This document shows positions 296-14,548 of a stretch of DNA of 20,812 bases, piece after piece. Each line of letters opens with the position of its first letter. Position 1 is the stretch's first letter. Source of the DNA: a virus; IMG/VR virus record IMGVR_UViG_3300032360_000063, positions 1 to 20,812 of that record; one strand, given 5' to 3'. Position numbers and translations under genes: made by a program. The notes under the pieces were generated by a model. That model was not told the origin of the DNA, did not search any database, and saw only the letters and a list, made by a program, of their open reading frames with translations.

Positions 296-1661
296 GAAAG
301 CGGCAGCTATACAAGCACGAGATGCAGCCGCAAAATATGCCAAACAAAATAAAATAGCAGATGCAGGATTAATAAAATTAGCAACCAACGCGGCTGAAAA
401 AGCGGCAACGGATGCATATAACAACTCAAATGAAATATCAGATAATAAATTAAAACAATTAGCGATCGCTGCGGCAGCGGCAACAATTGATAAAGAAAAT
501 AATAAGACAAAATCAACGGCAGTGGATGTAACGTATCCAATAGATCATCACCCAGATGATACTAAAAAGAATGATGTAAAGATAGCAACTGGAACGTATC
601 CAATTGGCACTGCATTCCCACACACTGGCGAACTTCCTATATCAGTGGGAACTGCCGCTACTGTAGGAAGTAATACTAATACTCTTGCAATAGCAAAAGC
701 ACTAGATGTAGCAAAAAGTAATACTACAAAAACGAAAACAGGCAAAAGACAATGGCCATATGGTGGTGACAGTGACCTTTGGCCTACAAATTTATATAAA
801 TGGACACAAAAATATGGTACATTTGAAAATGAAAATTTAATTACAAAGTACTTCACACTAAACGAGGGCGGAGCAATGCCAGGAGTTGGGACAGTACATA
901 TATCTGAAATTCAACCAACATTAGTACAATTAGAAAAATCATTGGGTATTAATTTACAAGATAATACATTAGGTAGTGTAGGCAAAAAACAATTTAGTGG
1001 TGATATTGATGTAGCGTTAAAAATAGCACCAGAAGAGATTCCAGCGTTTATTGAAGCACTTACTAAAAATCCACTTGTTAGTGATATTAGAAAAACTAGT
1101 GTTATTATGACAAAAGTAAAAATACAAAACTTTGATAAAAGCAAAGAAGATCCAGATGGCAGACCACGTACAGGATTTGTACAAGTTGACTTTATGCCAG
1201 GCGATCCAGGGTGGCTAAAAACATATTATCATACACCACATGAAGATGATTCAAAATACAAAGGTGTTTATCGTAACATTATGATTGCAACATTAGCCGC
1301 AGTTCATAACAGAGATGAAAGTGATGCTAAACTAGAAGACGGTCGTGCAATGGAAACTAGACGTTTAATGTGGAGTCCAACAGAAGGACTATTACGTGTT
1401 AAACGTACACCTGTTCCTAATAAAGCAGGCACAGGGTATACTAAAAAGAATAAAAACGAAACAATTGATGGTCCTTGGAAACAACCAGATGACATAGCAC
1501 AACAACTAGGTCTTGATAGTGGCAAAGATTTAAATAGTTTTGAATCACTATTAAAAGTAATGCAAAAGAACTGGACAAAGGAAGCACAACAATATGCCGT
1601 TGATGGATTTAAAGATAATAAAGTAATACAAGATATTGGAATACCAGAGGAGTTACAATAA
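1..1661 (+). CDS. Nucleotidyltransferase-like phage protein with Ala-rich tandem repeats, 5' partial
   Basis: The reading frame is open from base 3 with no stop, so the true start lies upstream; the ATGs in the repeats are probably internal. The first ~95 codons are copies of a 28-residue Ala/Lys/Asp-rich unit (core DDKLIKTAQAVA), followed by degenerate copies (DAGLIKLATNAA, DNKLKQLAIAAA) and a low-complexity linker. The C-terminal ~280 residues are globular. Bases 972-1010 encode GSVGKKQFSGDIDV, the G-S...D-x-D signature of the Pol-beta-type nucleotidyltransferase fold, and VQVDFM (Asp at 1188-1190) could be the third metal-binding acidic residue. The substrate cannot be predicted. The stop overlaps the next ATG by one base. 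It heads a run of leader-bearing genes, so I infer a virion or internal protein. The fold call is moderate and the role low in certainty. A catalytically dead structural NTase fold is possible. Confidence 0.6.
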   Translation, partial: DDKLIKTAQAVAMQKAADAKADAQNTAADDKLIKTAQAVAMQKAADAKADAQNTAADDKLIKTAQAVAMQKAADAKADAQNTAADDKLIKTAQAVAMQKAAAIQARDAAAKYAKQNKIADAGLIKLATNAAEKAATDAYNNSNEISDNKLKQLAIAAAAATIDKENNKTKSTAVDVTYPIDHHPDDTKKNDVKIATGTYPIGTAFPHTGELPISVGTAATVGSNTNTLAIAKALDVAKSNTTKTKTGKRQWPYGGDSDLWPTNLYKWTQKYGTFENENLITKYFTLNEGGAMPGVGTVHISEIQPTLVQLEKSLGINLQDNTLGSVGKKQFSGDIDVALKIAPEEIPAFIEALTKNPLVSDIRKTSVIMTKVKIQNFDKSKEDPDGRPRTGFVQVDFMPGDPGWLKTYYHTPHEDDSKYKGVYRNIMIATLAAVHNRDESDAKLEDGRAMETRRLMWSPTEGLLRVKRTPVPNKAGTGYTKKNKNETIDGPWKQPDDIAQQLGLDSGKDLNSFESLLKVMQKNWTKEAQQYAVDGFKDNKVIQDIGIPEELQ

Positions 1662-2116
1662 TGAAAATAAATGAAATAACTACAGAGAAAGACGAGTTAA
1701 ACGAGATAATAGGGCCATTAATAAAATGGGGGTTGAAAAAAGTGGCTAAAGCAGGTGGCAGTGCGGCTAATTCATCCTCTAAGGCAATTAAAGGTACAAC
1801 TTCGGGTGCTAAAGTTAACACGGTATCAAAAACACAGAAATCTCATTTGTCAGGAACGAAAACAAACAGTAAACCAAATAAAAAAACTGATACTAAATCT
1901 ATGACTGTGTCGAAGGCCAGTCAGAGTTCCCTTTGGCCAAAGTATGTTCACAAGGCATTTGCAGATAAGTCCCGATTAGATAACTTTCGTGCTAGAAATG
2001 GCGTGCCAGGCAAATACTCGGAAATCCAAAAACATGAACTACAGAAATTAACAAAGGCTGCTAAGGTGAGCCAGTCCGTTGTTCCTTTAAAGTTTCTGAA
2101 AAGCTGGCCAAAATAA
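1661..2116 (+). CDS. Small basic protein with MKINEI capsid-targeting-like leader
   Basis: 151 residues, not recognised. It begins MKINEITTE followed by an acidic stretch with a second L-N-E site (DELNE, then IIGPLIKWG). Residues ~35-85 are rich in Ser, Thr, Lys and Gly and probably disordered. The C-terminal ~60 residues are basic and more structured (LWPKYVHKAFADKSRLDNF). The ATG overlaps the preceding stop (taATG) and an AGAGGAG-like run lies just upstream at 1645-1652. The leader resembles the T4 internal-protein targeting peptide, and its basic character would suit DNA contact inside a capsid. That role is inference. No enzymatic motif is visible. Confidence 0.7.
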   Translation: MKINEITTEKDELNEIIGPLIKWGLKKVAKAGGSAANSSSKAIKGTTSGAKVNTVSKTQKSHLSGTKTNSKPNKKTDTKSMTVSKASQSSLWPKYVHKAFADKSRLDNFRARNGVPGKYSEIQKHELQKLTKAAKVSQSVVPLKFLKSWPK

Positions 2117-2131
2117 TTTAAGAAATAAACA

Positions 2132-2497
2132 ATGAAAATAAATGAAATTATAACAACAGAAGCTCCTACTTGGTCAGTAAAGGGCAACCCTCATAGTAGA
2201 GATATCAATATAAATGATCTAAATCTATCTGTGCCACATGCACCTATTCATACTGACAAAAAAACTAAAAAACTACCACCAGGAGCAGATTTAACTAATC
2301 CTAGTATTGATATTGATTCTGGTAGTGAATTTGATAGTAATTGGGATACTATATTAGATTTAGACAAAAAATTTAAAAAGTTTGGTAAATTTAATATAGG
2401 CAAAAACATATCAGGTAAAATAGACTTAAATAAGGATGATATTCTTAAAGGGAAATTTGATCCAACAGCAACTGTTCAATATAGAAAAAATTGGTAG
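2132..2497 (+). CDS. Small hypothetical protein with MKINEI leader
   Basis: 121 residues, not recognised. It starts MKINEIITTEAPTWS, the same leader as its neighbours, with Glu-Ala after the hydrophobic pair as in the T4 IPIII site (FIAE/A). The middle is Asp/Ser-rich (SIDIDSGSEFDSNWDTILDLD) and the C-terminal third is Lys/Gly/Asn-rich and likely flexible. There are no cysteines, membrane segments or enzyme motifs. It lies 15 bases after the previous gene and 9 before the next, in the same transcription unit. No strong ribosome binding site is seen. Confidence 0.65.
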   Translation: MKINEIITTEAPTWSVKGNPHSRDININDLNLSVPHAPIHTDKKTKKLPPGADLTNPSIDIDSGSEFDSNWDTILDLDKKFKKFGKFNIGKNISGKIDLNKDDILKGKFDPTATVQYRKNW

Positions 2498-2506
2498 AAG
2501 AGTATA

Positions 2507-3529
2507 ATGAAAATCAACGAAATAACAAAAAAAGAATGGGAGGACGCATTTAAAAATGCAGCCAAAACAACAGCCAAAAAGACTATTTCCAAGGCTGATT
2601 TTTTAAAGAATTCAACTGCTACCTGGGTAGGTCCAGAGTCTGGCGTATGGAATGACGTTACATCTTTTGAAGCACAAAGACTGGAAAAGGAAGGATGGAG
2701 CGAAAGAATGATATGGAAAATGACTCAAAATATAAGAGGAACTGATGGCAACTGGATGCAAGAAATATCAGATCATAATGCTAAATTAAAACCAGAAGGA
2801 GTTGATCCAAGAGATGGAATTAAAACACTAGGAGATCATCTCGACCACGAAGAATTATTTAAAGCATACCCACATGCGAAAGATATAAAAGTAAAATATT
2901 GGGATAATAAACACAAGCCACAGACAACTGGTAGATATAATGAGTATAGAGACGAAATAAGCGTAGGAATTTATGGTCAAGACGCTAACGGAAAAACAGT
3001 CAAACGAACACCTTCTCAGCTTATTAGCACTATGGCGCATGAATGGCAACATGGTAACGAAACGCTAGAAAAGTGGGCACCAGGTGGTAGTTCAACAACT
3101 GATACAACTAAAGAAATAGCAAAGAATTTAACCAAGGCTGGACAACCGCATGATGCCTATGATACATATAGATCACTCGGTGGCGAAGTAAATTCTCGTT
3201 CAACAGTTGATAGACTAGATTTAACTCCAGATCAACGTAAAGCTCAACACCCAACGTTAGGACGGTTAAGTAAAACAATTACAATTCCAGGACACACGCT
3301 TCCACCACACATTACGGATCCAAATGCAGTATCAACAACTACATCTAGAGATAAGAAATTTATTACATATACGAATCCAGATTATGGGCGTCGTGTTGTA
3401 CCACATCCATTGGGTAAAAGTTCAAGTAAGTCATCAGATGCATTTACTAAAGTAGACCTTGGTCCTCAAAAAGCAATTTCTGTTGATCTTACTAAAAATT
3501 CTGCTAACAAAACAAAGAAACCTCAATAA
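2507..3529 (+). CDS. Leader-bearing HExxH metallopeptidase-like protein
   Basis: 340 residues beginning MKINEITKKEW. Residues 178-182 are HEWQH, the zinc-metallopeptidase HExxH signature, in a helix-like context (STMAHEWQHGNETLEKW). About 45 residues later comes a Tyr followed by GGEVNSR (225-231), whose Glu227 could be the third zinc ligand. The order HExQH, then Y...GEv.sR, then R..L resembles the metallopeptidase-like domain found in large phage polyvalent proteins (LPD23 type, from memory). The C-terminal ~90 residues are Ser/Thr/Lys-rich and probably linker. A leader on a protease suggests packaging in the capsid and possible delivery to the host; this is inference. It could instead process virion proteins. 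It is the last gene before the 3533 promoter. Confidence 0.65.
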   Translation: MKINEITKKEWEDAFKNAAKTTAKKTISKADFLKNSTATWVGPESGVWNDVTSFEAQRLEKEGWSERMIWKMTQNIRGTDGNWMQEISDHNAKLKPEGVDPRDGIKTLGDHLDHEELFKAYPHAKDIKVKYWDNKHKPQTTGRYNEYRDEISVGIYGQDANGKTVKRTPSQLISTMAHEWQHGNETLEKWAPGGSSTTDTTKEIAKNLTKAGQPHDAYDTYRSLGGEVNSRSTVDRLDLTPDQRKAQHPTLGRLSKTITIPGHTLPPHITDPNAVSTTTSRDKKFITYTNPDYGRRVVPHPLGKSSSKSSDAFTKVDLGPQKAISVDLTKNSANKTKKPQ

Positions 3530-3532
3530 ATA
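3525..3532 (+). promoter_or_regulatory. Late-promoter-like octamer AATAAATA
   Basis: AATAAATA matches seven of eight positions of the T4 late promoter TATAAATA and the nATAAATA form reported for marine T4-like phages. It overlaps the end of the protease-like gene and abuts the -35 of the sigma70-type promoter. It could give the radical SAM genes late transcription, but short AT-rich matches arise by chance in this genome. Confidence 0.35.
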
Positions 3533-3561
3533 TTGACATATACAGGTGAATCCTGTATAAT
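3533..3561 (+). promoter_or_regulatory. Consensus sigma70-type promoter for the radical SAM pair
   Basis: TTGACA at 3533-3538, a 17-base spacer, and TATAAT at 3556-3561: a perfect consensus. The expected start near 3568 is only about two bases before the first ATG (3570), so the transcript would be leaderless or start translation at the in-frame ATG at 3579. Confidence 0.85.
3539..3559. promoter_or_regulatory. Palindromic operator candidate inside the promoter
   Basis: TATACAGG-tgaat-CCTGTATA is a perfect 8-bp inverted repeat with a 5-base centre. It fills the spacer and overlaps four bases of the -10. This placement is classic for a repressor site. The binding protein is unknown. Confidence 0.55.
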
Positions 3562-3569
3562 AACATCAA

Positions 3570-4754
3570 ATGGAACTCATGACAGAAAAATATTGTATAT
3601 ATACAAACAATTTTACATTCGTTGATAATGATGGATATGTAGCATTGTGTTGTAAAAATCTAAAACATAAACTTCCTTATCATATTAAAGAACACAAACT
3701 TAGTGATATTTGGAATAGCCCAGAAATGCATGAAGTAAGAGCAGAAATTGCCAATGGTGGCGAACCTGCAGGTTGTTTTAAATGCTATGATCCAGAAAGA
3801 GAAGGAGTGCGTAGTTTTAGACAAAAAGCATTAGGCATGATTAATAATGGTGTTCCGTTTGAAGATAATAAAATACATGCATTAGATTTAAGATTAGGTA
3901 ACGTATGTAACTTAGCATGTGTTATGTGTTTTGCCGGCAACAGTAATAAAATATTACACAATCATAAATCGATGGCAGAGCATTTTAATTGGAAAGATGG
4001 AAGATTAGAAAAAGAAGCAGAAAAATACCACAGAAGCAATTACGATTGGAGTGATGATCCACAAGCATGGGATAATATTATTTCAAGTGTTGATAAAAAC
4101 TTAAAGCACGTATACCTAGCAGGTGGCGAGCCTTTTTATCTTAAAAACTTTCCTACTACAGTAGAAAGATTAGGCAGACTTGCTCCTGGAACAAATTTTG
4201 TAATTAATACAAATGGTACAAGGTTATTAAGAGAAAAAGATTTAAAGCAGTTTAAGAATGTTGAAAATGTATTCATAAGATTTAGTGTAGATGGTTGGGG
4301 TAAAGCAAATGAGTGGACTAGACAAGGTACTGTATGGGAAGAAAATCTGCAAGTAATGGATCAGTATTACAAAAACTTTAGATTGGCGGTATGGGACATT
4401 ACTGCTAACAGTTTAAGTGTAAGACACATACCTAAACTTATTACATATTTATGGAATAACTATCCAGATGCAAAAGTACAAATACGACCGGTTGTTAATA
4501 AGACAGAAGTACTAATGGAAAACATTCCTGATAGATTTAAAAAAGAAAGTTTAGCATTTTTTGAAAAGCATAAAAATAGGCTAGAGGGTGTTGATCATGT
4601 TATAAATGAAATGCGTAAGCCATTTAATAATGATATGAAACGTAAAAAAACAGTAAGGCATTTTGTAGATTATTATGATGCACATGGTGCACTTACACTT
4701 GATAGTTTTGATCCAGAGTTAGCAGAATGGATACATAGTGATGACGAAGAATAA
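3570..4754 (+). CDS. Radical SAM protein with N-terminal twitch/SPASM-like cysteines (copy 1)
   Basis: 394 residues. CNLACVMC (Cys113, 117, 120) is the CxxxCxxC motif that binds the SAM-cleaving 4Fe-4S cluster, in the usual LRLGNVCN context, and VYLAGGEPF supplies the GGE motif for SAM. An N-terminal module with Cys9, a CC pair and CFKC, plus LSDIWNS, is typical of a twitch/SPASM-type auxiliary cluster placed before the core, as in radical SAM proteins of marine phages. The substrate is unknown; relatives modify peptides or proteins. The start is 3570 or the in-frame ATG at 3579; neither has a clear ribosome binding site. It overlaps the next gene by 14 bases, and the two are likely co-translated paralogues. 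Confidence 0.85.
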   Translation: MELMTEKYCIYTNNFTFVDNDGYVALCCKNLKHKLPYHIKEHKLSDIWNSPEMHEVRAEIANGGEPAGCFKCYDPEREGVRSFRQKALGMINNGVPFEDNKIHALDLRLGNVCNLACVMCFAGNSNKILHNHKSMAEHFNWKDGRLEKEAEKYHRSNYDWSDDPQAWDNIISSVDKNLKHVYLAGGEPFYLKNFPTTVERLGRLAPGTNFVINTNGTRLLREKDLKQFKNVENVFIRFSVDGWGKANEWTRQGTVWEENLQVMDQYYKNFRLAVWDITANSLSVRHIPKLITYLWNNYPDAKVQIRPVVNKTEVLMENIPDRFKKESLAFFEKHKNRLEGVDHVINEMRKPFNNDMKRKKTVRHFVDYYDAHGALTLDSFDPELAEWIHSDDEE

Positions 4755-5964
4755 TTTTTGTTCAATTCCTTGGATACATGCCGCTACTAAAACAAACGGA
4801 ACAAGTAGAGTATGTTGCTTAATGAGCAACCATACAAGTGGCGGTCTCACAGGACATAACTTTAAAGATCATACAATAGAAGAAATACATAATAGCGAAT
4901 TCACTCGCAAGATTCGTAAACAATTCCTAGCAGGAGAAAAACCTGTTGAATGTGAAACATGCTGGACCAAAGAAGATAACGGTGGGAAAAGCAGACGTAC
5001 ATTTACAAATAGAATGTACAAGGATGTAATTGATTACGATAAAGCAGTAAAACTTACTTCGCCCGACGGAAGTACAACACAAATGCCTGTGTATTGGGAT
5101 TTGAGGTTTGGCAACTTATGCAATTTAAAATGCGTAATGTGTGGACCTCAAAGCAGTAGCATGTGGTACAAAGACTGGGCAAAAGTTCACAACACCGATC
5201 ATTTTTACGACAGCGGTACCAAAGTCACAATGCAGGACGTATCCAAACAAGAAAGGAAAGACCGTGCATCGGATTATGATTGGTGGCAAAGTGAACACTT
5301 TTGGGAACAGTTAGATCAATACAAAGATCAATTAGAACATGTATATCTAGTAGGTGGTGAGCCTATGCTTATTGAGAATCACTATAATTTTTTGCAAAAA
5401 TTAATAGATGCAGGCGTAAGTAACAATGTAGTACTAGAATACGATACAAATATTACAAATGTACATCAACGTGCTATTGAACAATGGAAGCATTTTAAAA
5501 AGTTAATTCTTAGATGCAGTATTGACGATTATGGTGAACAAAATGATTATATTCGTTTTCCGAGCAAATGGTATAAATTAAATGAAAATATAGAACGTAT
5601 TAATGAATTACTGCAAAATACACAAGTAGAAATAAGCATTACTTGGCAAATGCTTAATGCATTTACATTTTTAAAACTATTAGACCACTTTAATGACTAC
5701 CCTATTAACATAAGAATACTGTCTAACCCTGATATGCTAGATGCAAAGCATCTCCCTAAACAAGCAAAACTAGGCATTATAAATACCTATAGTACTTCAA
5801 AACACAAAGATAAAATTTCTCATTTAGTAAATTATTTGAACAATAATATAGATTACGACAATAATCCGTATAGTTGTGTAGAATTTTTAGAAAAATTAGA
5901 TAAAATAAGAGGAACAAACTGGAAAGAAACGTTTATTGAATTACATAAATCGATAAATAGTTAA
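4741..5964 (+). CDS. Radical SAM protein with N-terminal twitch/SPASM-like cysteines (copy 2)
   Basis: 407 residues from the ATG at 4741; a GTG one codon earlier (4738) is possible. CNLKCVMC (Cys127, 131, 134) is the radical SAM cluster motif and VYLVGGEPM the GGE motif. The N-terminus repeats the plan of copy 1: FCSIPWIHA, VCCLMSN, then CETCWTKEDNGGKSRR, a likely auxiliary cluster or substrate-recognition module. The two proteins share overall layout but are clearly diverged, so they probably act on different substrates or as a pair. The gene begins inside the end of copy 1. A late-promoter-like site for the next gene lies inside its last codons. Enzyme class is confident, substrate unknown. 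Confidence 0.85.
   Translation: MTKNNFCSIPWIHAATKTNGTSRVCCLMSNHTSGGLTGHNFKDHTIEEIHNSEFTRKIRKQFLAGEKPVECETCWTKEDNGGKSRRTFTNRMYKDVIDYDKAVKLTSPDGSTTQMPVYWDLRFGNLCNLKCVMCGPQSSSMWYKDWAKVHNTDHFYDSGTKVTMQDVSKQERKDRASDYDWWQSEHFWEQLDQYKDQLEHVYLVGGEPMLIENHYNFLQKLIDAGVSNNVVLEYDTNITNVHQRAIEQWKHFKKLILRCSIDDYGEQNDYIRFPSKWYKLNENIERINELLQNTQVEISITWQMLNAFTFLKLLDHFNDYPINIRILSNPDMLDAKHLPKQAKLGIINTYSTSKHKDKISHLVNYLNNNIDYDNNPYSCVEFLEKLDKIRGTNWKETFIELHKSINS
5952..5959 (+). promoter_or_regulatory. Late-promoter-like octamer GATAAATA
   Basis: GATAAATA contains the ATAAATA core of T4-like late promoters. Transcription would start near 5965, just before AAGGAG (5968-5973) and the ATG at 5979, a sensible arrangement for a late gene. 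Confidence 0.5.
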
Positions 5965-5978
5965 AACAAGGAGTCGTG

Positions 5979-6416
5979 ATGAAAGTTAATGAAGTAACAG
6001 ACACATTATTGGAATTAGAACTATGGGCTAAGAAACAAGCACCATTGTTTGAAGCTAGTGCGTCTGCGGAGAGCCTTAGTAAAACAATTTTACAAAAAGC
6101 AGTACACAAGTTTAAAGGACAGCCAGAGCCTGATGAAGCTAAGACTAAAGAGATGCAAGATTACATGGCAGGCTTAGAAGCGAAACTTGGAAATGAAAAA
6201 GTAGAAAAAACAATATTACAAAAGTTCTTTGGATTCTTTCGTAGTCATCCAAGATGGATAGGACTAGGAGTTATTATATTAATGCTAATATCTCCTATGT
6301 TACCATCAATTGCAGTAATAGGATTAAGTTTAGAAAAGATACTTTCAATGACACTAGCTGGATTATATGCAATAGATATTGCATCACCAGCAGTTAAAAC
6401 AGCACTGGAGCTATAA
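5979..6416 (+). CDS. Leader-bearing membrane protein
   Basis: 145 residues from the ATG at 5979, five bases after AAGGAG; the GTG at 5976 is in frame but less likely. It begins MKVNEVTDTLLELEL, a valine variant of the MKINEI leader with several L-x-E sites. Residues ~93-116 (from WIGLGVIIL) and ~119-135 are strongly hydrophobic and look like one or two membrane segments preceded by basic HPRW. The motif KTILQK occurs twice (35-40 and 77-82). It is unrecognised. A hydrophobic protein with a capsid-type leader is odd; it might insert in the host membrane after delivery, or form part of the capsid interior. Both are speculation. Confidence 0.65.
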   Translation: MKVNEVTDTLLELELWAKKQAPLFEASASAESLSKTILQKAVHKFKGQPEPDEAKTKEMQDYMAGLEAKLGNEKVEKTILQKFFGFFRSHPRWIGLGVIILMLISPMLPSIAVIGLSLEKILSMTLAGLYAIDIASPAVKTALEL

Positions 6417-6417
6417 T

Positions 6418-7374
6418 ATGAAAATTAATGAATTTGCAAATAAATCAAAAGTTGATGAAGGTGACATGGAAGCAGATCAGAAAAATCCTCATGCTCAACC
6501 ATTTCTTCATCTTCCTGAGTGGAAGATGTTACATGATATAGATGATAAAATTATTAGTGCATATATTAAACATAAATCAATGGCAAGAGCTGCCGGTAGA
6601 GGAATTAAGAAGGGTTTGAAAAAACTTTCAAAATTAGGTTCTAAAAATGTTTCTACATCATGGGATGATGATGGACATGCAACTACAACTACAACATATA
6701 ATGAAACCAAAGAACAAGCAGATGCTTATCACAATGAGGTCTTACAAAAATTAATAAAACAACTCTTTGATGTATCGTATGATGTTAGATACAAAAGAGG
6801 TGACTCAGATGCTCAAGCTGATACACTAGATAAAGTTATGGCTGAACTTAAAGATTTAAGACTTGCTTTCCCAAATAAACATTATAAAATTGGCGAAGAT
6901 AAAAACTCTGATACTAAACAAAAAAGAATAGCAATAGATACAGTCAAAAATCCTAATAAAGCATTATTGGGTGGTCCTTCAGCCAGCGAAGCAGAAGATA
7001 TTTTAAAAACTAAATTTGGATATTCAGATAATCAAATTGCTAAACTTAAAGGAGTTGATGAATCCAAACTTAATGAATTTACTCTTTCAGATTTAAAAGG
7101 AATGGGAATTAAGCCTACAAGAGAACAATTCCATAAACTTCAAAAGATGAACCATGAAAATGGTGGAAATATTACTAGAAGTGATTTGCAAAAGGTTGGT
7201 ATTAATGAACAAGGCGTTATTGTACCAGGTGTAAACACTACAGTTGATGTAAAGCCAGGACAAACAGAAATAGAAGCGGCTAAGTTTGGTAATGGAAAAA
7301 TAAAACCATTAATGCCTAAAGGAAAGAGTAGTTCACACATTTTATTTAACTTAGGATTAGCAGAACATAAATGA
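6418..7374 (+). CDS. Hypothetical protein with MKINEF leader
   Basis: 318 residues. The start is the ATG at 6418, one base after the previous stop; the in-frame stretch upstream from 6379 lies inside the preceding gene and is rejected because 6418 restores the shared leader (MKINEFANKSK). Residues ~60-80 are very basic (RAAGRGIKKGLKKLSKLG). The region 195-275 has several short helical, homeodomain-like phrases (DILKTKFGYSDNQIAKLKG; LSDLKGMGIKPTREQF; ITRSDLQKVGI) that may be small helical repeats. The end (SSSHILFNLGLAEHK) is uncharged compared with the rest. No catalytic motif is seen. Its stop overlaps the next start (ATGA). I infer a virion or internal protein. Confidence 0.65.
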   Translation: MKINEFANKSKVDEGDMEADQKNPHAQPFLHLPEWKMLHDIDDKIISAYIKHKSMARAAGRGIKKGLKKLSKLGSKNVSTSWDDDGHATTTTTYNETKEQADAYHNEVLQKLIKQLFDVSYDVRYKRGDSDAQADTLDKVMAELKDLRLAFPNKHYKIGEDKNSDTKQKRIAIDTVKNPNKALLGGPSASEAEDILKTKFGYSDNQIAKLKGVDESKLNEFTLSDLKGMGIKPTREQFHKLQKMNHENGGNITRSDLQKVGINEQGVIVPGVNTTVDVKPGQTEIEAAKFGNGKIKPLMPKGKSSSHILFNLGLAEHK

Positions 7375-7664
7375 TAGTATATATTGTACAAATGGAAAAA
7401 GCAATAGCTAAACCAACAGCAGTATGTGATCCACATAACAAATATGTTGTTGGTGTTTATGCTGATATTAAAGTGGCACATGAATCTGGTAAGGTAGAAG
7501 AAAATTGGAGACATGGACAGTATAGATATCGTATACATGATTTTGTGTTAGATCATATTAATACTGATAAATTAAAATATGTAGTATCTGATGCAAACAA
7601 ACCCGGAGACTTATCGCCAGATTTTGAGATCATTAATATTAAAAGTGCTTTAAAAAAGATATGA
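7371..7664 (+). CDS. Small hypothetical protein
   Basis: 97 residues, not recognised. It begins MIVYIVQMEKAIAKPTAVCD and reads like a compact alpha/beta domain: a beta-rich start, VYADIKVAHESGKVEENWRHGQYRYRIHDF, then a helix. There is no leader, membrane segment or enzyme signature. It overlaps both neighbours by ATGA, indicating translational coupling in the operon that starts near 5960. Confidence 0.65.
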   Translation: MIVYIVQMEKAIAKPTAVCDPHNKYVVGVYADIKVAHESGKVEENWRHGQYRYRIHDFVLDHINTDKLKYVVSDANKPGDLSPDFEIINIKSALKKI

Positions 7665-7852
7665 AAATAAAAGATGTACTAAAACTTCCAAGTATTAACA
7701 TAGGCGATGAAGTGTTAGTAGGAAAATTTAAAAACCGTAGAGCAACAATTACGGGGTTTACTACAGACGACAACAATCAGCCAGTATTAAAAACAACTAA
7801 AGGCGATCAAAAACTATTCAAACCTAGAATAGTTAAATTAATGGATAAGTAA
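7661..7852 (+). CDS. Small SH3/KOW-like conserved phage protein
   Basis: 63 residues. The body, IGDEVLVGKFKNRRATITGF and then QPVLKTTKGDQKLFKPRI, has the strand pattern of an SH3/KOW-like barrel and resembles small conserved proteins of marine T4-like phages (from memory). The first residues MKIKDVLKL recall the leader family, but without an I/L-x-E site I do not count it. It is coupled to the gene before by ATGA. A nucleic-acid or RNA-polymerase contact is possible but unsupported. Confidence 0.65.
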   Translation: MKIKDVLKLPSINIGDEVLVGKFKNRRATITGFTTDDNNQPVLKTTKGDQKLFKPRIVKLMDK

Positions 7853-7853
7853 A

Positions 7854-8234
7854 ATGAAAGTAGAGTTGAGGCGATTGCAGCCAAAGCATATTTTCCAATT
7901 AAGAAGTATACTAACAAAAGAGACCGCTCAATCATCATATATAGAGTGGCCTTTCACAAAAAAGGTTGCAGAATCTTTCATTTCAAACTATAATACATGG
8001 GGTATATGGATTAATAACGGAATTCTTGTCGGCGCTGTGGAAGTAAAAGAAAATTTAGAAACAGCATACTTTGTAAATGACAAGTATAGGAATATAGGAA
8101 TAGCAACACAGGCAGTGTTATTATGTAAAGAAGAATTTGCTGATAAACAACTTTGGTGTGTTATTAATCCTAATAACAAAGCAAGTTTAAAAGTAGCTAA
8201 TAATGCACAACTCAGAGTAAGTTTCATTAGTTAA
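7854..8234 (+). CDS. GNAT-family N-acetyltransferase
   Basis: 126 residues, slightly short for the ~140-180 of most GNAT enzymes. The acetyl-CoA pyrophosphate-binding loop R-x-x-G-x-A is visible at 79-84 (YRNIGIATQAV), preceded by the strand TAYFVNDKY. The C-terminal phrase WCVINPNNKASLKVANNA (101-118) is the usual motif B with Asn and Ser. The end (LRVSFIS) lacks the common GF but appears to be a natural terminus. It transfers an acetyl group to an unknown amine. It starts two bases after the previous stop. Whether it acts on a host or phage target cannot be told. Confidence 0.75.
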   Translation: MKVELRRLQPKHIFQLRSILTKETAQSSYIEWPFTKKVAESFISNYNTWGIWINNGILVGAVEVKENLETAYFVNDKYRNIGIATQAVLLCKEEFADKQLWCVINPNNKASLKVANNAQLRVSFIS

Positions 8235-8248
8235 ATGTAAGGAATAAT

Positions 8249-9010
8249 ATGGACTATTCAAAAGTAGATAAAGATGGCAACGAATTAAAGTCAATAGTAG
8301 AACCTGCTAACCAAAAATACCAAGCAGGCTATTATGATTACTGGTTGGAAGATCCATCAAAGTACGAACCAACTGAAGAAGATATTAAATGTGAATTACA
8401 ATTATCTGCAATGAGTACAGTAGAACCATTAAAATGGGAAATTGACTTAGGATGGTTTAGAAAAGAGATTAAAGCATACGACGATAAGTGGGTTCCGTAT
8501 TTACGCAGAGAAGGTGTAGTAAACAACAGAGAAGGACTATGTTTAGTAGGACTACCAGGAGATGATCCTTGGGATAGTTTAAGTATGCCTGAAGCAATAA
8601 AAAGAACTGGACGAATGCTTACTGAATTAGATTTTAATGAACCTACACAGTTATACAAAGACTGTAAAAGTTTACACCCATTATTAGATTATTGGAAACC
8701 ACTAGGACGTACAATTATTGTTAATAGTGGTGCAGGAGGGTGGTTCCCACCACACAAAGACCAACCAATGCTAACCAGAAATACATTTAGAGTATGTGCA
8801 TTTGTGTCAAAAAATGTAGGACATGATGCATACGAATGGGTATCAGATGGGCATACTTGGCCAGTTAAATCGGGCGGCGTATACTATATAGACACACGTA
8901 AAACGCATAGAACACACAGTTGGAAACCAGATAGTATGCATTTAGTTATGAATATACCAAAAACGTGGGAAAATGTTGTTAAGTTAATGAGTGCGACACT
9001 TAATTACTAG
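8249..9010 (+). CDS. 2OG-Fe(II) oxygenase-like (aspartyl/asparaginyl hydroxylase type)
   Basis: 253 residues. GGWFPPHKDQP contains the H-x-D iron ligands (His169, Asp171). The distal His is His220 or His223 in TRKTHRTHSW, after a strand ending SGGVYYIDT, as in the aspartyl/asparaginyl beta-hydroxylase branch of the cupin-fold 2-oxoglutarate oxygenases. A 2OG-binding Arg is plausibly Arg182 (RNTFRVCAF) or Arg221. These enzymes hydroxylate proteins or small molecules using Fe(II), O2 and 2OG, and are common in marine T4-like phages. AAGGA at 8238-8242 serves the ATG at 8249. The substrate is unknown. It is the last gene before the late-promoter-like site at 9029. Confidence 0.7.
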   Translation: MDYSKVDKDGNELKSIVEPANQKYQAGYYDYWLEDPSKYEPTEEDIKCELQLSAMSTVEPLKWEIDLGWFRKEIKAYDDKWVPYLRREGVVNNREGLCLVGLPGDDPWDSLSMPEAIKRTGRMLTELDFNEPTQLYKDCKSLHPLLDYWKPLGRTIIVNSGAGGWFPPHKDQPMLTRNTFRVCAFVSKNVGHDAYEWVSDGHTWPVKSGGVYYIDTRKTHRTHSWKPDSMHLVMNIPKTWENVVKLMSATLNY

Positions 9011-9028
9011 CCAATAATTCTTGAATTA

Positions 9029-9036
9029 GATAAATA
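9029..9036 (+). promoter_or_regulatory. Late-promoter-like octamer GATAAATA
   Basis: It has the same octamer as at 5952, in the 31-base gap before the MKITDI gene. The last base is five bases before the next ATG (9042), so the transcript would start at or next to the start codon, leaving no leader. No ribosome binding site is visible. Confidence 0.5.
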
Positions 9037-9041
9037 CTTGT

Positions 9042-9245
9042 ATGAAGATTACAGACATTATAACTGAGGATGCAGATGCAGGAAGTACAATGGCAGGTAA
9101 TATTGCCAGTGTTACGTTCCCAATGACGCCTGGCACTAAAGAAAAAGACGCTCGTAAAGCTGTAGATCCAAAAGGATACTTAGGTAATAAGAAAAAAAAG
9201 AAGAGCTTAGGTTATACTGAAGAAGTCAAGGTGATTAAAAGATGA
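9042..9245 (+). CDS. Small leader-bearing protein, MKITDIITE
   Basis: 67 residues. It begins MKITDIITEDADAGSTMAG; I-T-E followed by Asp is a good match to a T4 prohead-protease site. The rest is Gly/Ala-rich, then DPKGYLGNKKKKKSLGY, a lysine-rich patch that could bind DNA. It resembles small conserved proteins of marine T4-like phages (from memory), usually of unknown function. There is no Shine-Dalgarno. Its stop overlaps the next start (ATGA). I infer an internal or scaffold-associated protein. Confidence 0.65.
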   Translation: MKITDIITEDADAGSTMAGNIASVTFPMTPGTKEKDARKAVDPKGYLGNKKKKKSLGYTEEVKVIKR

Positions 9246-10252
9246 ATTTAAAACAATTAAATGAAATTCCGGACATAGAATCTGACATTTATGCACAAGA
9301 TACTTGGAAAAATGATTGGCGTAAGTCAGAAGAGATTGTTAATAAGTATTTTGATGGCAATGAAGATTATTTAGAAGCAATAATGGATAACGTAACTTCT
9401 GATTCTTATAAGGATGAAACAGGTGATGATTATTTCTGGAACAAACACGCAGACATTATTAATGACAATTTTTATGGTGATTGGAATTGGTTAGAAGCGA
9501 TACAATATTGGGATGAGAAAGATATTGTTAAGGCGAAATCAATATACAGCAATGACTTTCAACAGAATCAAAATGTCAAGCCAGGAAACTCAAACTTTGA
9601 TGATAGAAGAAGAACTACAGAGGCAGAAGATGTAGACCCTTTTTCAAAAGAAGGCTGGGAAAAATACAGAAGTTTTAAACATGGATCAGCAACTGCTGAC
9701 AAAATGGCTAAAGACGAAGATAAACGTGGCAATAAAAGATTTGGAAAGTATGACGACAACGGAAATTGGCATAGTGTATCAACTTCAGACCCAGATAAAT
9801 GGAAAGAATTAAAAGCAAAAGGTTATTCATTAGTAGAAAGTTGGAAAACTCCATATTTTATTAAAGAAGCCACAGGTAAATGTAAATATTGCGGTTGTTC
9901 AATTGATAGTCCAGATCCATCTTGTGATTGTAAATATGATTCACATGATGCAAGTGGTAGTAATTGGGTTAACGAAGGCATTTATGCAAAGAATAAAGAA
10001 GACCCTATGAATCCAGAAGTAATTATACAGGGTTATGGAAGATTAATGTTAAAACAACTTGAATCAAAAGTATCAAGTATGTTTACAGAATTAGCAGAAA
10101 TGTGCGATAAAGGTAATTGGAGCAATGTTGAATATAATCTTAATAAAGGTTTAGTACAAGAGTTCCTAAAAACTATAACAGAAACGTACGAAGAATTAGA
10201 ACAAATTAGAAGACGCGGCGGTATGAACAGTCGTGGCATTAAACAGAGGTAA
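9242..10252 (+). CDS. Hypothetical virion-type protein with cysteine cluster
   Basis: 336 residues. It starts MNLKQLNEIPDIE, where L-N-E could be a prohead-protease site. Two ~20-residue copies of a W/Y-rich unit lie near the N-terminus (SEEIVNKYFDGNEDYLEAI and HADIINDNFYGDWNWLEAI). GSATAD at ~150 recurs in the next gene. Residues 214-230 hold C-x2-C-x-C-x8-C-x-C (Cys214, 217, 219, 228, 230), a likely small zinc site. The C-terminal ~90 residues form charged helices ending RRRGGMNSRG. No known family is recognised. It is translationally coupled to both neighbours by position, and I infer a structural or packaged protein. Confidence 0.65.
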   Translation: MNLKQLNEIPDIESDIYAQDTWKNDWRKSEEIVNKYFDGNEDYLEAIMDNVTSDSYKDETGDDYFWNKHADIINDNFYGDWNWLEAIQYWDEKDIVKAKSIYSNDFQQNQNVKPGNSNFDDRRRTTEAEDVDPFSKEGWEKYRSFKHGSATADKMAKDEDKRGNKRFGKYDDNGNWHSVSTSDPDKWKELKAKGYSLVESWKTPYFIKEATGKCKYCGCSIDSPDPSCDCKYDSHDASGSNWVNEGIYAKNKEDPMNPEVIIQGYGRLMLKQLESKVSSMFTELAEMCDKGNWSNVEYNLNKGLVQEFLKTITETYEELEQIRRRGGMNSRGIKQR

Positions 10253-10256
10253 CGAC

Positions 10257-11399
10257 ATGGACACAAACCACCCGACATATAACAAAATTGATAATACGTT
10301 CGAACGTGTTATGAATGAGATTAACAAATTTGAAAAAGTTTTTAAACAAGGCGGCCAACTAGAGATGGCTGTAATGGAAATAGATGGAGACCCATCGCAT
10401 TTAAAAGATGTAGCATTAGCATTATCAAATCTTTATGAGGCTTTGGAAGATGCACACTTTGGTACAATAGGTCACGTAGTAGATGATCGAGGTGCTAAAG
10501 AATCAGTTCAAGAGAATAAAAAAACAATTAAAGAAGGTGTACTTGACAGTGATGATGATGATGGGTTTATGGCCCGTAGTCAACTTTACTTTATGGCACG
10601 TGATGCAATTAAACTGCACGGTGTTATTCAAGATCAAGATAATTTAGAACCATGGGTACAAAATAAAATAGCCTCTTCAAGCAAAGATATGGATGCAGTG
10701 CGTCGTTACACTGAATATAATGCCATGAAAGCCGAAATTGAACCAGAAGGAATGGAACTAAGCACACATACACATGATGAGCCTATTGAAGAAATTCCAG
10801 CAGAAGTCTCAATAGAACCTACAGAAGAATCAACAGTTGCTGAATCTGATTATGCTCGTGACTATGTTCTAGCAAACGCACCTGAACGTATGGTAGGAAT
10901 GCACCCAATTTCAAAAAATGCATTTTTAATTGACTTAGAAAAAACATACCCAGGTATTAGAAAAGAATTAGGTGAAGAAGTTGTTGAAACAAAAGAAGTT
11001 GAAGTAACAGAAGGTATGGAATTTGATGATAAAAATGCAAGTGATGATCTTCAAGTTGTTGCAAAAGACTTATTTAAGTCAGCAATGAAAGCGGCTCAGA
11101 AAAAGCATAAAGAGTCAAAAGTATTAGAAGGCGTTACTATATCCGGTGGCGTGCCAGGGACTGGATCAGCAACTGCTGATGCGAAGTTAATTAAAATAGC
11201 AAAAAACGCAGAACAGCCTAAGGCTAAAGCAGATGCACAAAACAAAGCTTCTGATGCTAAGTTAATTAAAAAAGCCCCAACCAAAGACGTAAATAGAAAA
11301 CGCAATTATAATGATGATGGAATTCAACCACCTAAAGGGCATCACAATACTACTGCTAACAGATGGGCAGAATCTACTGAAGAAGGAGTGAAATCATAA
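10257..11399 (+). CDS. Hypothetical virion-type protein with DAKLIK repeat tail
   Basis: 380 residues from the ATG at 10257, preceded by AGAGG at 10244-10248; a GTG at 10233 is in frame but lies inside the previous gene. The N-terminal ~80 residues are helical. Residues ~100-165 (DDDDGFMARSQLYFMARDAIKLHG, then DNLEPWVQNKIASSSKDMDAVRRYTEY) resemble a domain seen in marine T4-like phage structural proteins (from memory). A Glu/Thr-rich linker follows. The tail carries GSATADAKLIKIA and KADAQNKASDAKLIKKA, matching the repeat unit of the gene at 1-1661. TIKE/GV and VLE/GV could be internal prohead-protease sites. Function unknown; virion role inferred. Confidence 0.65.
   Translation: MDTNHPTYNKIDNTFERVMNEINKFEKVFKQGGQLEMAVMEIDGDPSHLKDVALALSNLYEALEDAHFGTIGHVVDDRGAKESVQENKKTIKEGVLDSDDDDGFMARSQLYFMARDAIKLHGVIQDQDNLEPWVQNKIASSSKDMDAVRRYTEYNAMKAEIEPEGMELSTHTHDEPIEEIPAEVSIEPTEESTVAESDYARDYVLANAPERMVGMHPISKNAFLIDLEKTYPGIRKELGEEVVETKEVEVTEGMEFDDKNASDDLQVVAKDLFKSAMKAAQKKHKESKVLEGVTISGGVPGTGSATADAKLIKIAKNAEQPKAKADAQNKASDAKLIKKAPTKDVNRKRNYNDDGIQPPKGHHNTTANRWAESTEEGVKS
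11166..11273 (+). repeat. Divergent copies of the DAKLIK / KADAQN repeat module
   Basis: The encoded residues SATADAKLIKIAKNAEQPKA and KADAQNKASDAKLIKKA align with the 28-residue unit repeated at 1-295 (KADAQNTAADDKLIKTAQ). At DNA level the copies are clearly related but not identical, unlike the array at the window start. Confidence 0.65.
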
Positions 11400-11881
11400 T
11401 GTTTACTAAAGCAGAGTTCCTTTCAAACGAAGATAATAATTACCACACTGAAAATGGTGTGGAAATGGCAAGAGAATTTGGTACTCCAGAAGAACTCGAA
11501 TTAATGTTACGAATTCAAAAAGATCACTATGCTCGTGGGCATATTCAGCCAGACGAGATAGAAGCACGTAGAGGTATTGTAAACAAATACTGGAAGCACT
11601 TGGAAAAAGTAGGAAGTGTTACAGACTCAATTGAAGAAGACGAAGAAAGAGGCGCTGATTTTTATCGAGCCCAAGATGCAGCAAATATGCAACATGCGAA
11701 AGTAAAATTAGAAAAACTTATAAGAGAATTAGATGTTGATATTTTATGGAGAGGCGAAAACAGTCGTAAATTTTTCAACAATGGTGATAGAGCTGGTACA
11801 GGTCAGTTAGGAAGTATAGTAGATAAACTAAGAGACATTAATAAAACCTGGGACAACGATACATCATTATACGGAATGTAA
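11399..11881 (+). CDS. Hypothetical protein
   Basis: 160 residues, not recognised. It is highly charged and helical throughout (EFGTPEELELMLRIQKDHYA; HAKVKLEKLIRELDVDILW), with no cysteines, membrane segments or leader. The ATG overlaps the previous stop by one base and AAGGAG lies at 11383-11388. It sits between two larger probable virion proteins and is most simply a structural or accessory virion protein. No specific role is supported. Confidence 0.65.
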   Translation: MFTKAEFLSNEDNNYHTENGVEMAREFGTPEELELMLRIQKDHYARGHIQPDEIEARRGIVNKYWKHLEKVGSVTDSIEEDEERGADFYRAQDAANMQHAKVKLEKLIRELDVDILWRGENSRKFFNNGDRAGTGQLGSIVDKLRDINKTWDNDTSLYGM

Positions 11882-11894
11882 TAGAGGAAATAAA

Positions 11895-13235
11895 ATGAAA
11901 TATAATCAAATAATAGCAAAAGAGGACGAAGCAAGTGACCTTTATCATGACAATGTTAAATCAGGTAAAGATTATAATGATTATAAAGGTATTCAAATCC
12001 ATAATTTAAGAAAAGAATTAAAGCGAGTAAGAAAAATACTTCTTAACCTACAAGACATTGAAGGTAAAGACAACAGTTCTGATATGGTTAATGACATTAG
12101 AAATATGCTTAACGGCTATCAGGAGATGATTGACAACATGGAAAGTGCATTTGAAAAACTTCAGATTGGACGGCATCGTACGGAATCGGTTACTATTGAC
12201 AAAGATGATAAACTTGCATCTTTAAAAGTTATCAATCCAAATAACAGGCGTCATGACGATACATTAAATGAATATTCTCCAAAACAAATTAAAATGGCAT
12301 TTGGAATTTTAAATGATCCAAGATACAGAGATGGTAATTATGATGGTGCTTATGCGGCCATTGAGAAACTTGCAAAAGGTTTAGCAAGTCATCCAAGTGT
12401 AGCAAAGGCATTAAAAAGAGCAAACGAATCAATAGTTAAAGAAGCAGATAAAGATGGAGACGGCAAAGAAGATCTAAAAGGGTTTGATGCAAAAACATCA
12501 TATGCTCTTAAAGCTCTCCAAGTAAAGTATCCACATGCAGATAATTTAATGTCAGCATTAATGGCTCAATCAGACGAAACAAACAAAAGACAAGATGATG
12601 GTGATAAGAAAAGAGATGCATTGGATAAGCTTCATAATAAAAACATTGATACTATTGAACAAAAACTATATGATGTTATTAAAAAGAATAATTTGACAGA
12701 AGAAAAAGAGAAATCAATTGTGAATGAAATAGATCCAAGTAGATCTCCGTGGACAGTTTCAGGTAAACACCCTGGAGCAATGAGCCAAAGAGAATTAGAA
12801 AGAGAAATCGCAGTATTTGATGAACTTAGAGATAGAGGTGATCATTTATCACCAAGAGAATTAGCACAAGAAGATTCATTATATCATTACTTAGAAAGCT
12901 CAAGACAAAGATCAATTGGTGAAATGCAGGCAAAAGATATGCAAAAACAGGCTAATCGTATTATGGAAAAATCCAAATGGAAATTACAAAAAAGAGAAGG
13001 CATTGAAGATATAGCAAAAGCACATACGAAAAAACACACACTACCACGACTTGATACAGAAAGATATCAAGAGCGTGATGGACTAGAAGGGCCTATAATG
13101 ACAAAGTCAGGTAAAGTAGTATATTACGATCCTAAAGAAGATTTATATTATGATCCAGATAAAGACATGTATATAGATGCTACTGATTATGACCGTTATG
13201 CTGATAATTATGATTATCATAATAAAAGGAGATAA
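11895..13235 (+). CDS. Long leader-bearing helical protein with Ca-loop-like motif and YYDP tail
   Basis: 446 residues beginning MKYNQIIAKEDEAS, a variant of the shared leader. The N-terminal third is coiled-coil-like (LRKELKRVRKILLNLQDIEG). Residues 185-193 (DKDGDGKED) match a DxDxDG calcium loop. IVKE/A and IVNE/I flank the central region and could be internal prohead-protease sites. WTVSGKHPGAMSQRELEREI resembles helical segments of marine phage virion proteins. The last ~35 residues are dominated by Tyr and Asp (YYDPKED, YYDPDKDMY, DYDRY), possibly a metal-binding or sticky tail. GAGG at 11884-11887 precedes the ATG. Function unknown; an internal or virion protein is inferred. Confidence 0.65.
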   Translation: MKYNQIIAKEDEASDLYHDNVKSGKDYNDYKGIQIHNLRKELKRVRKILLNLQDIEGKDNSSDMVNDIRNMLNGYQEMIDNMESAFEKLQIGRHRTESVTIDKDDKLASLKVINPNNRRHDDTLNEYSPKQIKMAFGILNDPRYRDGNYDGAYAAIEKLAKGLASHPSVAKALKRANESIVKEADKDGDGKEDLKGFDAKTSYALKALQVKYPHADNLMSALMAQSDETNKRQDDGDKKRDALDKLHNKNIDTIEQKLYDVIKKNNLTEEKEKSIVNEIDPSRSPWTVSGKHPGAMSQRELEREIAVFDELRDRGDHLSPRELAQEDSLYHYLESSRQRSIGEMQAKDMQKQANRIMEKSKWKLQKREGIEDIAKAHTKKHTLPRLDTERYQERDGLEGPIMTKSGKVVYYDPKEDLYYDPDKDMYIDATDYDRYADNYDYHNKRR

Positions 13236-13240
13236 TAATT

Positions 13241-13495
13241 ATGTTTAATTGGATTAAAAAAATGTTTGGAGCAGGTGCTAAGCCTCAAGTATGGATAGCA
13301 AAACCTAAAGTAGAAGTAAAGAAAAATATGACTAACCCAATAGTAGTCAAACCAAAATTTAAAAATAAAAAAGATTTATCAAAAATGACTAAAGTTAAAC
13401 TCGAAGAAGTAGGTAGAGTTTACGGCATAGAACTTGATAGAAGAGAAAGAAAAGATAAGTTAATAAATCAGCTTTGGAAAGCGATTAAAAAGTAG
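13241..13495 (+). CDS. Small basic protein with HeH/SAP-like C-terminal domain
   Basis: 84 residues. The N-terminal ~40 are basic and amphipathic (MFNWIKKMFGAG) with a Lys/Pro/Val linker. Residues ~45-80 (DLSKMTKVKLEEVGRVYGIE, LDRRERKDKLINQLW) follow the helix-extended-helix pattern of HeH/SAP/LEM-type nucleic-acid-binding modules. A strong ribosome binding site (AAAGGAG, 13225-13231) lies nine bases before the ATG, predicting high expression. Small HeH proteins occur in marine phage structural clusters. DNA binding is plausible but not proven. Confidence 0.7.
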   Translation: MFNWIKKMFGAGAKPQVWIAKPKVEVKKNMTNPIVVKPKFKNKKDLSKMTKVKLEEVGRVYGIELDRRERKDKLINQLWKAIKK

Positions 13496-13510
13496 GAGAG
13501 CTATAAGGGC

Positions 13511-14548
13511 ATGAGATTAGTACACTTATTTGAATTAGAAAGAAAAGATCAAATGAAGAAAATGAGACGTATCTATGATAAGATGCAAGAAAACCCTGCT
13601 GTCATAGATGAATTATGGAAAACTATTGCTAACATGACTGTAGATACTGAAGGTGATCTTAAGAGTAGAGTTTTATCAGCAATCGATCCTAAGAATACAG
13701 GTAAAGAACAAGATCAAACATATGCAGAGGGATTTGTAGCAGGTTTAGTTAATGCTATTGATAAAACAGAAGGTACAACGGAAGAAAGAATTGCATTCGC
13801 AAAAACGTTGGGCACAGTAAATCATGTAGATCCAAAGGCACTATTGCAGCCATTAACTAGTTGGGGTGACTGGCTAGTAGGCACAGATTTTAGTAAAAGA
13901 TTATTTGATACAATGTTTAATGATCCTGCATTTCTACAAGCTAATAAAGGACCAGGTGAATTTGCACTTGCAATTTTAAGTCCAAGTATTACATTAACAG
14001 GTGGTAAAGGTGACATACAAGTAAATGGTAAGCCTGTTGAAGTTAAATCAGGCCTAACATCATCGGGTGGTAGATTATCTCCTACTTCAGGAACACTAGG
14101 TCAACTTTATAAAAATAAAGAATTTTGGGATGCACTAGTTCCAGAAGATACTGTAAAAGCCAAACAATTAGGTAGCATTAATAAAATTAATGCAAATAAC
14201 TATAGTGCATTTTTAGAAGAGTATGGGCTTCAGCCAAAACACTCAGTAAAAATACTACAATCAATATTTAAGCACAACGATGCTAGTGCTCTTGCTACGC
14301 AAATAGGTAAAAGTGGAACTAATGTAAAAGCATCAGATTTAATTAAACTAGCTGTTAAAAATTATGGTGCATCACAAGGCGATGATGCTTTCTTAATTTT
14401 ACAAAAAGATATTAGAACTAGTTTGTATTTTGATGTTGATAATTTAGATCCAGTACTTAGCAGACTTTCTTTTTCATTGCCACTTATAGACAGTGACGCA
14501 AGAAGTCAAGGCAAAGCTCAAATTGGTATCTTAAAGAAAGCAAGATAA
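13511..14548 (+). CDS. Leader-bearing PD-(D/E)xK nuclease-like protein
   Basis: 345 residues beginning MRLVHLFELE, similar in layout to the T4 Alt leader (MELITELFDE, from memory) with L-F-E as the cleavage site. The core has a Glu in GPGEFALAILS (Glu150), then GDIQVNGKPVEVKSG with Asp168, Glu177 and Lys179: the E...D...ExK arrangement of the PD-(D/E)xK nuclease fold. The surroundings are helical. DNA would be the expected substrate, with a divalent metal. If packaged it could attack host DNA early or handle phage DNA ends; both are inference. An inactive structural relative is possible. AGGAG lies 12 bases upstream, somewhat far. Confidence 0.6.
   Translation: MRLVHLFELERKDQMKKMRRIYDKMQENPAVIDELWKTIANMTVDTEGDLKSRVLSAIDPKNTGKEQDQTYAEGFVAGLVNAIDKTEGTTEERIAFAKTLGTVNHVDPKALLQPLTSWGDWLVGTDFSKRLFDTMFNDPAFLQANKGPGEFALAILSPSITLTGGKGDIQVNGKPVEVKSGLTSSGGRLSPTSGTLGQLYKNKEFWDALVPEDTVKAKQLGSINKINANNYSAFLEEYGLQPKHSVKILQSIFKHNDASALATQIGKSGTNVKASDLIKLAVKNYGASQGDDAFLILQKDIRTSLYFDVDNLDPVLSRLSFSLPLIDSDARSQGKAQIGILKKAR

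Follow-up and report, generated by a model that had tools for sequence, protein, structure and literature searches.

Why should nine otherwise unrelated proteins of one virus begin with nearly the same short peptide? The question is raised by IMG/VR virus record IMGVR_UViG_3300032360_000063, a 20.8-kb stretch of DNA that was analysed over its whole length (hereafter the window) and that belongs to a large, uncultured phage related to T4. Its family-B DNA polymerase is nearest (43-48%) to those of the jumbo phages Atu_ph07, Phosso, Vibrio 2.275.O, 121Q, GAP32 and RaK2. A reading made without database searches (the sequence-only reading) had taken the peptide, here called the leader, for a capsid-packaging tag. 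The leader was found to be real and shared far above chance, and we hold with good confidence that it is a capsid-targeting sequence of the T4 type that is processed by the prohead protease. The cargo-tag interpretation is supported by conservation of the peptide, its modular gain, its resemblance to T4 leaders, a virion-protein cluster of Atu_ph07, and a small protein that mimics the N-terminal arm of the major capsid protein (MCP). Some cut sites had been placed wrongly in the sequence-only reading, and this mimic and the [ILV]xE junctions inside the proteins had been overlooked.

The leader and the capsid-arm mimic

All nine proposed starts were confirmed as ATG open reading frames (ORFs) on the plus strand, named here by their first nucleotide (Table 1). 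The nine proteins are unrelated beyond the start, as had been claimed, since BLAST at E<=0.1 gave no similarity among their bodies. The pattern M[KR][IVLF]x[EDQHN][IVLF] matched 6 of the 28 window N-termini, against 0.7 for column-shuffled N-termini and 0.0 for internal methionines; this count leaves out ORFs 2507, 9042 and 11895, the called starts of which lie too late, and ORF 9242 (N at position 2), and takes in ORF 7661. Gene starts were those of a simple caller, and several are misplaced (e.g., 9042, 2507 and gp059 of Atu_ph07). ORF 7661 (MKIKDVLKLP) was rejected as a lookalike, its whole 63-aa protein being conserved in relatives and lacking the site. Run against related phages, as had been proposed, the pattern recurred on unrelated proteins of the same gene block in G003 (9 of 48 N-termini, 1.1 expected), G006 (7 of 73, 0.9 expected), G007 (7 of 160, 0.85 expected) and G001 (9 of 278, 1.06 expected); the first regular expression was derived from the sequence-only reading and later ones were widened stepwise, so that the enrichment figures of the latter are not fully blind.

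In the T4 genome, gp24 starts with MAKINELLRE, the internal proteins (IPs) IPII and IPIII with MKTYQEFIAE, the 682-aa Alt with MELITELFDE (MELITE↓L, the arrow marking a known or candidate cut), and a 95-aa protein, which we take to be IPI, with MKTFKEFTSTTTPVSTITE↓A. Processing by gp21 is known for gp24, Alt and the IPs, with Alt cut at ITE-6 and LTE-619 (PMC5694885). In the IPIII leader, targeting depends mainly on residues 4 and 7, and processing on residues 8 and 10 (PMC9026906). The form of the window leaders matches that of these processed head-protein leaders, in line with the analogy to T4 capsid targeting.

Proteases of the S77 (gp21) type and MCPs are present in four isolates, Atu_ph07, RaK2, Phosso and Vibrio phage 2.275.O. 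ORF 9042 reads MKITDIITE↓DADAGSTMAGNIASVTFP, and the part after the Glu copies MCP sequence that stands behind a cleavage-like Glu of the MCP itself, which ties the terminal Glu of the leader to prohead-protease cleavage. ORF 9042 and its orthologues in G002, G003, G006 and G007 share the form MK[IV][TYF]DII[TN]E↓DA[DE][AG]G(S/D)(T/S)M(A/S)GN(I/F)AS; the matching MCP stretch, in the four isolates and many environmental MCPs, is [LFM]xE↓(S/N/T)AT.G(A/S)T..(G/S)N(I/V)A. The Glu of the jumbo-phage MCPs would be a cut site, as judged from homology with T4 gp23, which loses a propeptide of 65 residues (PMC5694885).

A hidden Markov model (HMM) was built from 43 MCP arms and run over every protein of the contigs and isolates in the comparison. 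Besides MCPs, only small mimic proteins or modules matched at E<0.01. In addition to ORF 9042, these were found in G034 (4e-8), G004 (internal, after NIKE↓; 3e-6), Vibrio (3e-5), G007 (1e-4), the C-terminus of Atu gp053 (KVPITE↓TSSAGSTGAGNVAT, Glu 733; 1e-4), G006 (1.3e-4), RaK2 (2.5e-4), G008 (7e-4) and Phosso (1.8e-3), so that all four isolates have a counterpart. The top T4 match after gp23 was gp61.1 (L130:18966-19130, minus strand; 54 aa), which consists of the leader MKTFKEFIKE and a copy of the gp23 N-arm. Its score against the gp23 arm was 82, compared with a maximum of 48 in 2000 shuffles.

Candidate cut sites and internal junctions

A canonical [ILVF]xE with its Glu at residue 8 or later was found in six of the nine window leaders. 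Among the cut sites proposed by the sequence-only reading, ITE, LNE and LFE stood. INE/I was dropped; it falls at residues 3-5, within the targeting motif, where cutting is improbable.

Modules that directly follow the leader in one phage sit inside longer proteins in another. At 12 such internal boundaries, a Glu was aligned to the leader Glu in 11 and [ILVF]xE was present in 9, against a background of 1.9%; the probability is only indicative, because boundaries had been selected for their homology to leader ends. The 12 were hand-picked from an automatic list from which four more matches were omitted, some of them repeats of the same boundary. Three matches were omitted for an unrelated or unconvincing 'leader' start (G035_54513, G035_94775 and G038_66798), and counting these as failures gives 9 of 15. 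The exceptions are G003 9702 and two boundaries that read QNE. In ORF 6418, the module behind INE↓QGVIV directly follows a leader in G003 (MKVNEIVTE↓QGVIV), and the homologue of the leader end VDE↓GDMEAD is internal in G001 (VGE↓GDIEAD). The module behind VNE↓GIYAKN in ORF 9242 directly follows a leader in G007 (MKINEINE↓SIYQMN), and the join between nucleotidyltransferase and 5'-nucleotidase in G006, LFE↓DLDPKSELYVDMDGV, corresponds to MKINQIINE↓AVDSKAEIYVDMDGV in G003. A thirteenth boundary, outside the count, is VKE↓DEASDLYHDN inside a G001 protein, which corresponds to MKYNQIIAKE↓DEASDLYHDN of ORF 11895.

Internal positions retain [ILV]xE but no docking part of the leader, which fits one targeting event per polypeptide and one cut per join. 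The conserved internal boundaries are a second link between the terminal Glu of the leader and prohead-protease cleavage. The arrangement suggests that ORFs 6418 and 9242 are among polyproteins with a single targeting leader and internal cut sites. Our judgement is evenly divided on the fuller proposal, namely that modular cargo polyproteins are packaged with one leader per polypeptide and conserved prohead-protease sites between modules, together with a small protein that copies the MCP arm. Neither internal sites in cargo nor the relation of gp61.1 to the gp23 arm was reported in the literature searched, which covered few subscription journals. A short module, CWDGYKKxGTKK...VNNCVKE, follows some leaders in G006, G007 and G035; it ends in VKE and may be a longer propeptide.

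The leaders of ORFs 2132 (TTE), 2507 (KKE) and 11895 (AKE), which lack a canonical site, would suit an uncleaved docking or targeting peptide, [ILV]xE then being merely a part of the docking helix and of the linkers between modules. The proteins encoded between portal and protease in the isolates (the gp67 position) start similarly to the leaders (MKLVELFE, MLFKDIFE, MKLTELFNPLTE), and many gp67-position proteins begin M-x-[LI]-x-E-[LF]-F without a subsequent Glu. This explanation is nevertheless considered unlikely. The sequence following the leader of ORF 9042 copies the MCP stretch behind a cleavage-like Glu, [ILV]xE is kept where the docking part is gone, and T4 Alt is cut at ITE-6, the same tripeptide as ITE-9 of ORF 9042.

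Conservation of the peptide and association with virion genes

The gene block evolves through heavy domain shuffling, and codons for K, I and N are favoured in AT-rich starts; the shared start might thus be a by-product of gene-start duplication or a shuffled translation-start signal without a targeting role. We regard this as very improbable. Leader pairs with the same residue share the codon barely above the prediction from codon usage (0.50 vs 0.39 at position 6; 0.67 vs 0.65 at position 8), and the conservative swaps K/R, I/L/V and E/D are frequent. The leader is therefore conserved as a peptide and not as DNA, and the DNA-level translation-start signal, which the sequence-only reading had set against its own proposal, was rejected. 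In the family of ORF 13511, the window and G001 are identical at 7 of 8 leader positions, at 5 of the next 20 and at about 22% beyond residue 100, and in Atu_ph07 leaders of this form are built from other residues (MRWEQLTE). Attachment of the leader to proteins is modular. The tRNA nucleotidyltransferase of the window clade carries the leaders MRIGELLIYE and MLINEVLIYE, and its NT5C-type 5'-nucleotidase carries MKINQIINE and MLINDIINE, whereas the Atu_ph07 homologues of both enzymes start directly in the domain; the leader has thus been gained or lost as a unit.

In the cultured relative Atu_ph07, 20 N-termini match M[KR][ILVFWY]x[EDQHN][ILVF]x(1-3)E, whereas shuffled N-termini give 1.0 (with at most 5 in any of 1000 shuffles). 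Twelve of them lie within coding sequences 31-76, a region in which 29 proteins were identified in virions by mass spectrometry (PMC6102473). With the annotated start of gp059 (MRWHQLNE) added, the cluster comprises 13 leader proteins (gp043, gp047 and gp053-063). The annotated gp053-062 all begin M[KR]Wx[QD]L[TNI]E and gp063 begins MRLFQLLE, with a canonical [LI]xE site in every one. By motif reading, the start YRG(M/I) of gp053-063 would be ADP-ribosyltransferase-like; an ADP-ribosyltransferase Pfam match was not found in these proteins. A GNAT-like segment is inserted behind the leader of gp063, and gp053 carries a zeta-toxin-type kinase domain, of which a leader-bearing homologue is present in G001. 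The first ORF of the window is homologous to gp065, which adjoins the gp053-063 run.

That the leader directs proteins to another phage or host site, e.g., the replisome or a membrane, has almost negligible probability: the leader genes are indeed concentrated within 25 kb upstream of the DNA polymerase gene (25 of 103 genes vs 5 of 504 elsewhere), whereas the comparable run of Atu_ph07 lies in a virion-protein cluster far from that gene, the internal-protein genes of T4 are likewise scattered among non-head genes, and late-promoter-like elements precede ORFs 5979 and 9042.

The relaxed element NATAAATA occurred 51 times at 10-60 nt upstream of gene starts in G001, G002, G003, G006, G007 and the window, with 6 expected, and T4-type late transcription is therefore likely in the clade. 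It was enriched before genes generally and only modestly so before leader genes (6 of 45 vs 35 of 664). The strict TATAAATA showed no enrichment upstream of leader genes.

Several points weigh against capsid targeting with processing. Besides the three leaders without a canonical site, the simple leader regular expression is weak in T4, RaK2, Vibrio 2.275.O and Phosso, and the G008 orthologue of ORF 13511 starts differently (MRFKDFRLVE). T4 also has a leader-like start, MILKILNE, on a non-head protein, which we take to be DNA ligase; single starts of this kind can be chance. Atu_ph07 gp053-063 are tied to virions at the level of the cluster only and, being paralogues, are not independent cases. 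Since homology was used to align the internal Glu with that of the leader, the binomial figure overstates independence. Protease, portal and MCP were not found in the window or in close-clade contigs, all of which are fragments; Pfam searches for Gp23 and S77 gave no match in the clade contigs, fragments without the head-gene region. The MCP scan reached only phages with a DNA polymerase 47-59% identical to that of the window, and the head genes of the window clade itself were therefore not seen. Packaging, cleavage, injection and the function of each cargo are what we infer.

Candidate cargo and comparison with known systems

In the mechanism proposed, the first part of the leader, M-[KR]-[IVL]-x-[ED]-[IVLF], would dock the newly made protein to the core of the prohead. 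Once the shell has been assembled, the gp21-type (S77) prohead protease would cut behind the next [ILVF]-x-E, and the mature cargo would stay in the head and be delivered with the DNA. In this lineage the tag sits on shuffling cargo modules, found in the window or in related phages (nuclease-like and zincin/polyvalent-like proteins, tRNA nucleotidyltransferase, 5'-nucleotidase and zeta-type kinase, and in Atu_ph07 also ADP-ribosyltransferase-like proteins). A single leader can also stand before several fused modules with [ILV]xE at the joins, some ORFs probably being polyproteins cut by the same protease. ORF 9042 is a minimal tagged member, a leader and a copy of the capsid-protein N-arm behind a cleavage-like Glu. 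The functions given for cargo are motif-level guesses. The features of the window are listed in Table 1.

Table 1. Leaders, candidate sites and associated elements in the window
Feature	Position	Strand	Remarks
Candidate cargo ORF, open at 5' end	3..1661	+	Leader outside window; C-terminal domain homologous to Atu_ph07 gp065
Leader MKINEITTEKDELNE of ORF 1661-2116	1661..1705	+	Candidate cut after LNE-15
Leader MKINEIITTE of ORF 2132-2497	2132..2161	+	Canonical [ILVF]xE absent (TTE)
Leader MKINEITKKE of ORF 2507-3529	2507..2536	+	Canonical site absent (KKE)
GATAAATA, T4-type late-promoter-like element	5952..5959	+	27 nt upstream of ORF 5979
Leader MKVNEVTDTLLE of ORF 5979-6416	5979..6014	+	Candidate cut after LLE-12
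Leader MKINEFANKSKVDE of ORF 6418-7374	6418..6459	+	Candidate cut VDE-14, VDE↓GDMEAD
Internal candidate site INE↓QGVIV (Glu 264) of ORF 6418 and module QGVIVPGVNTTVDV...	7201..7371	+	
GATAAATA, late-promoter-like element	9029..9036	+	13 nt upstream of ORF 9042
Leader MKITDIITE of ORF 9042-9245	9042..9068	+	Candidate cut after ITE-9
MCP N-arm mimic DADAGSTMAGNIASVTFP of ORF 9042	9069..9122	+	MCPs: E↓(S/N/T)ATAGATSAGNVAT; MCP-arm HMM E=1.2e-4
Leader MNLKQLNE of ORF 9242-10252	9242..9265	+	Candidate cut after LNE-8
Internal candidate site VNE↓GIYAKN (Glu 245) of ORF 9242 and module ...PMNPEVIIQGYGRL...	9968..10249	+	
Leader MKYNQIIAKE of ORF 11895-13235	11895..11924	+	Canonical site absent (AKE)
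Leader MRLVHLFE of ORF 13511-14548	13511..13534	+	Candidate cut after LFE-8
PD-(D/E)xK-like motif of ORF 13511	14012..14047	+	D168...E177-x-K179, invariant in 9 homologues

Judged from its motif, ORF 13511 may have a nuclease as its cargo; the AlphaFold model in which a restriction-endonuclease-like fold was sought was of too low confidence for use (predicted local distance difference test [pLDDT] 55), and a fold search gave no match. ORF 2507 combines a zincin-like motif, HEWQH, with an LPD23-like region, the match of 21.7 bits being below the Pfam gathering cut-off of 27. No close relative of ORF 2507 turned up in viral contigs, and its AlphaFold model (pLDDT 35) was too poor for use.

Two adjacent radical-SAM proteins (3570-4754 and 4738-5964; PHROG 14086) lie within the cargo block and have no leaders. 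The ORF at 8249-9010 has an H-x-D...H pattern (PHKDQP...RTHSW) and, as a sequence impression, may be 2-oxoglutarate/Fe oxygenase-like. Tandem units of about 84 bp (DDKLIKTAQAVAMQKAADAKADAQNTAA) occupy positions 1-440 in the first ORF, and ORF 10233-11399 holds a related stretch, KADAQNKASDAKLIKKAP. An 85-aa protein with an Atu_ph07 homologue is encoded at 15753-16010; we tentatively take it for the T4 late-transcription factor DsbA.

If the proposed mechanism is true, the prohead protease would be the maturation enzyme for the whole set of injected effectors, in the manner of polyprotein viruses, and internal protease sites would allow several separate effectors to be delivered by one gene. 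With a readable packaging tag, sequence alone would be enough to list the injected effectors of uncultured jumbo phages, candidates for anti-defence included. Protease specificity could be worked out without proteomics from modules that carry their cut site along when they move between phages, and the MCP-arm mimic gives a starting point for understanding T4 gp61.1-like proteins.

The closest parallel to ORF 9042 in its design, leader and MCP arm, is T4 gp61.1. In both, the arm is a copy from the MCP of the respective lineage, and the remaining sequence has diverged. The propeptide of T4 gp24, MAKINELLRE, contains KINE[LI][LI]xE and is nearly the window leader KINEI(I)TE; gp24, however, is a capsid vertex protein and not injected cargo. 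The capsid-targeting sequence of T4 IPI, IPII, IPIII and Alt (Mullaney and Black 1996, as described in PMC9026906) is likewise a short N-terminal peptide on unrelated bodies, in which a hydrophobic/acidic core is followed by an [LI]xE-type site at the end, and the cargo classes overlap (Atu_ph07 ADP-ribosyltransferase-like proteins; T4 Alt). The window leader differs in being usually one residue shorter (MKINEIITE vs MKTYQEFIAE), in having [KR] at position 2 and an aliphatic residue at position 3, and in standing on more proteins in combination with candidate internal sites. The inner-head proteins of phiKZ and SPN3US are also many packaged proteins of jumbo phages with propeptides removed by the prohead protease (PMC5694885), but several of their propeptides exceed 100 residues, the sites are SxE and AxE, and the phages belong to another group. 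The polyvalent LPD proteins (Iyer et al. 2017, PMC5512222) are multidomain conflict proteins, which the weak LPD23 match and HEWQH of ORF 2507 recall; in the window, candidate protease sites would instead link the domains, and a short capsid tag would precede them.

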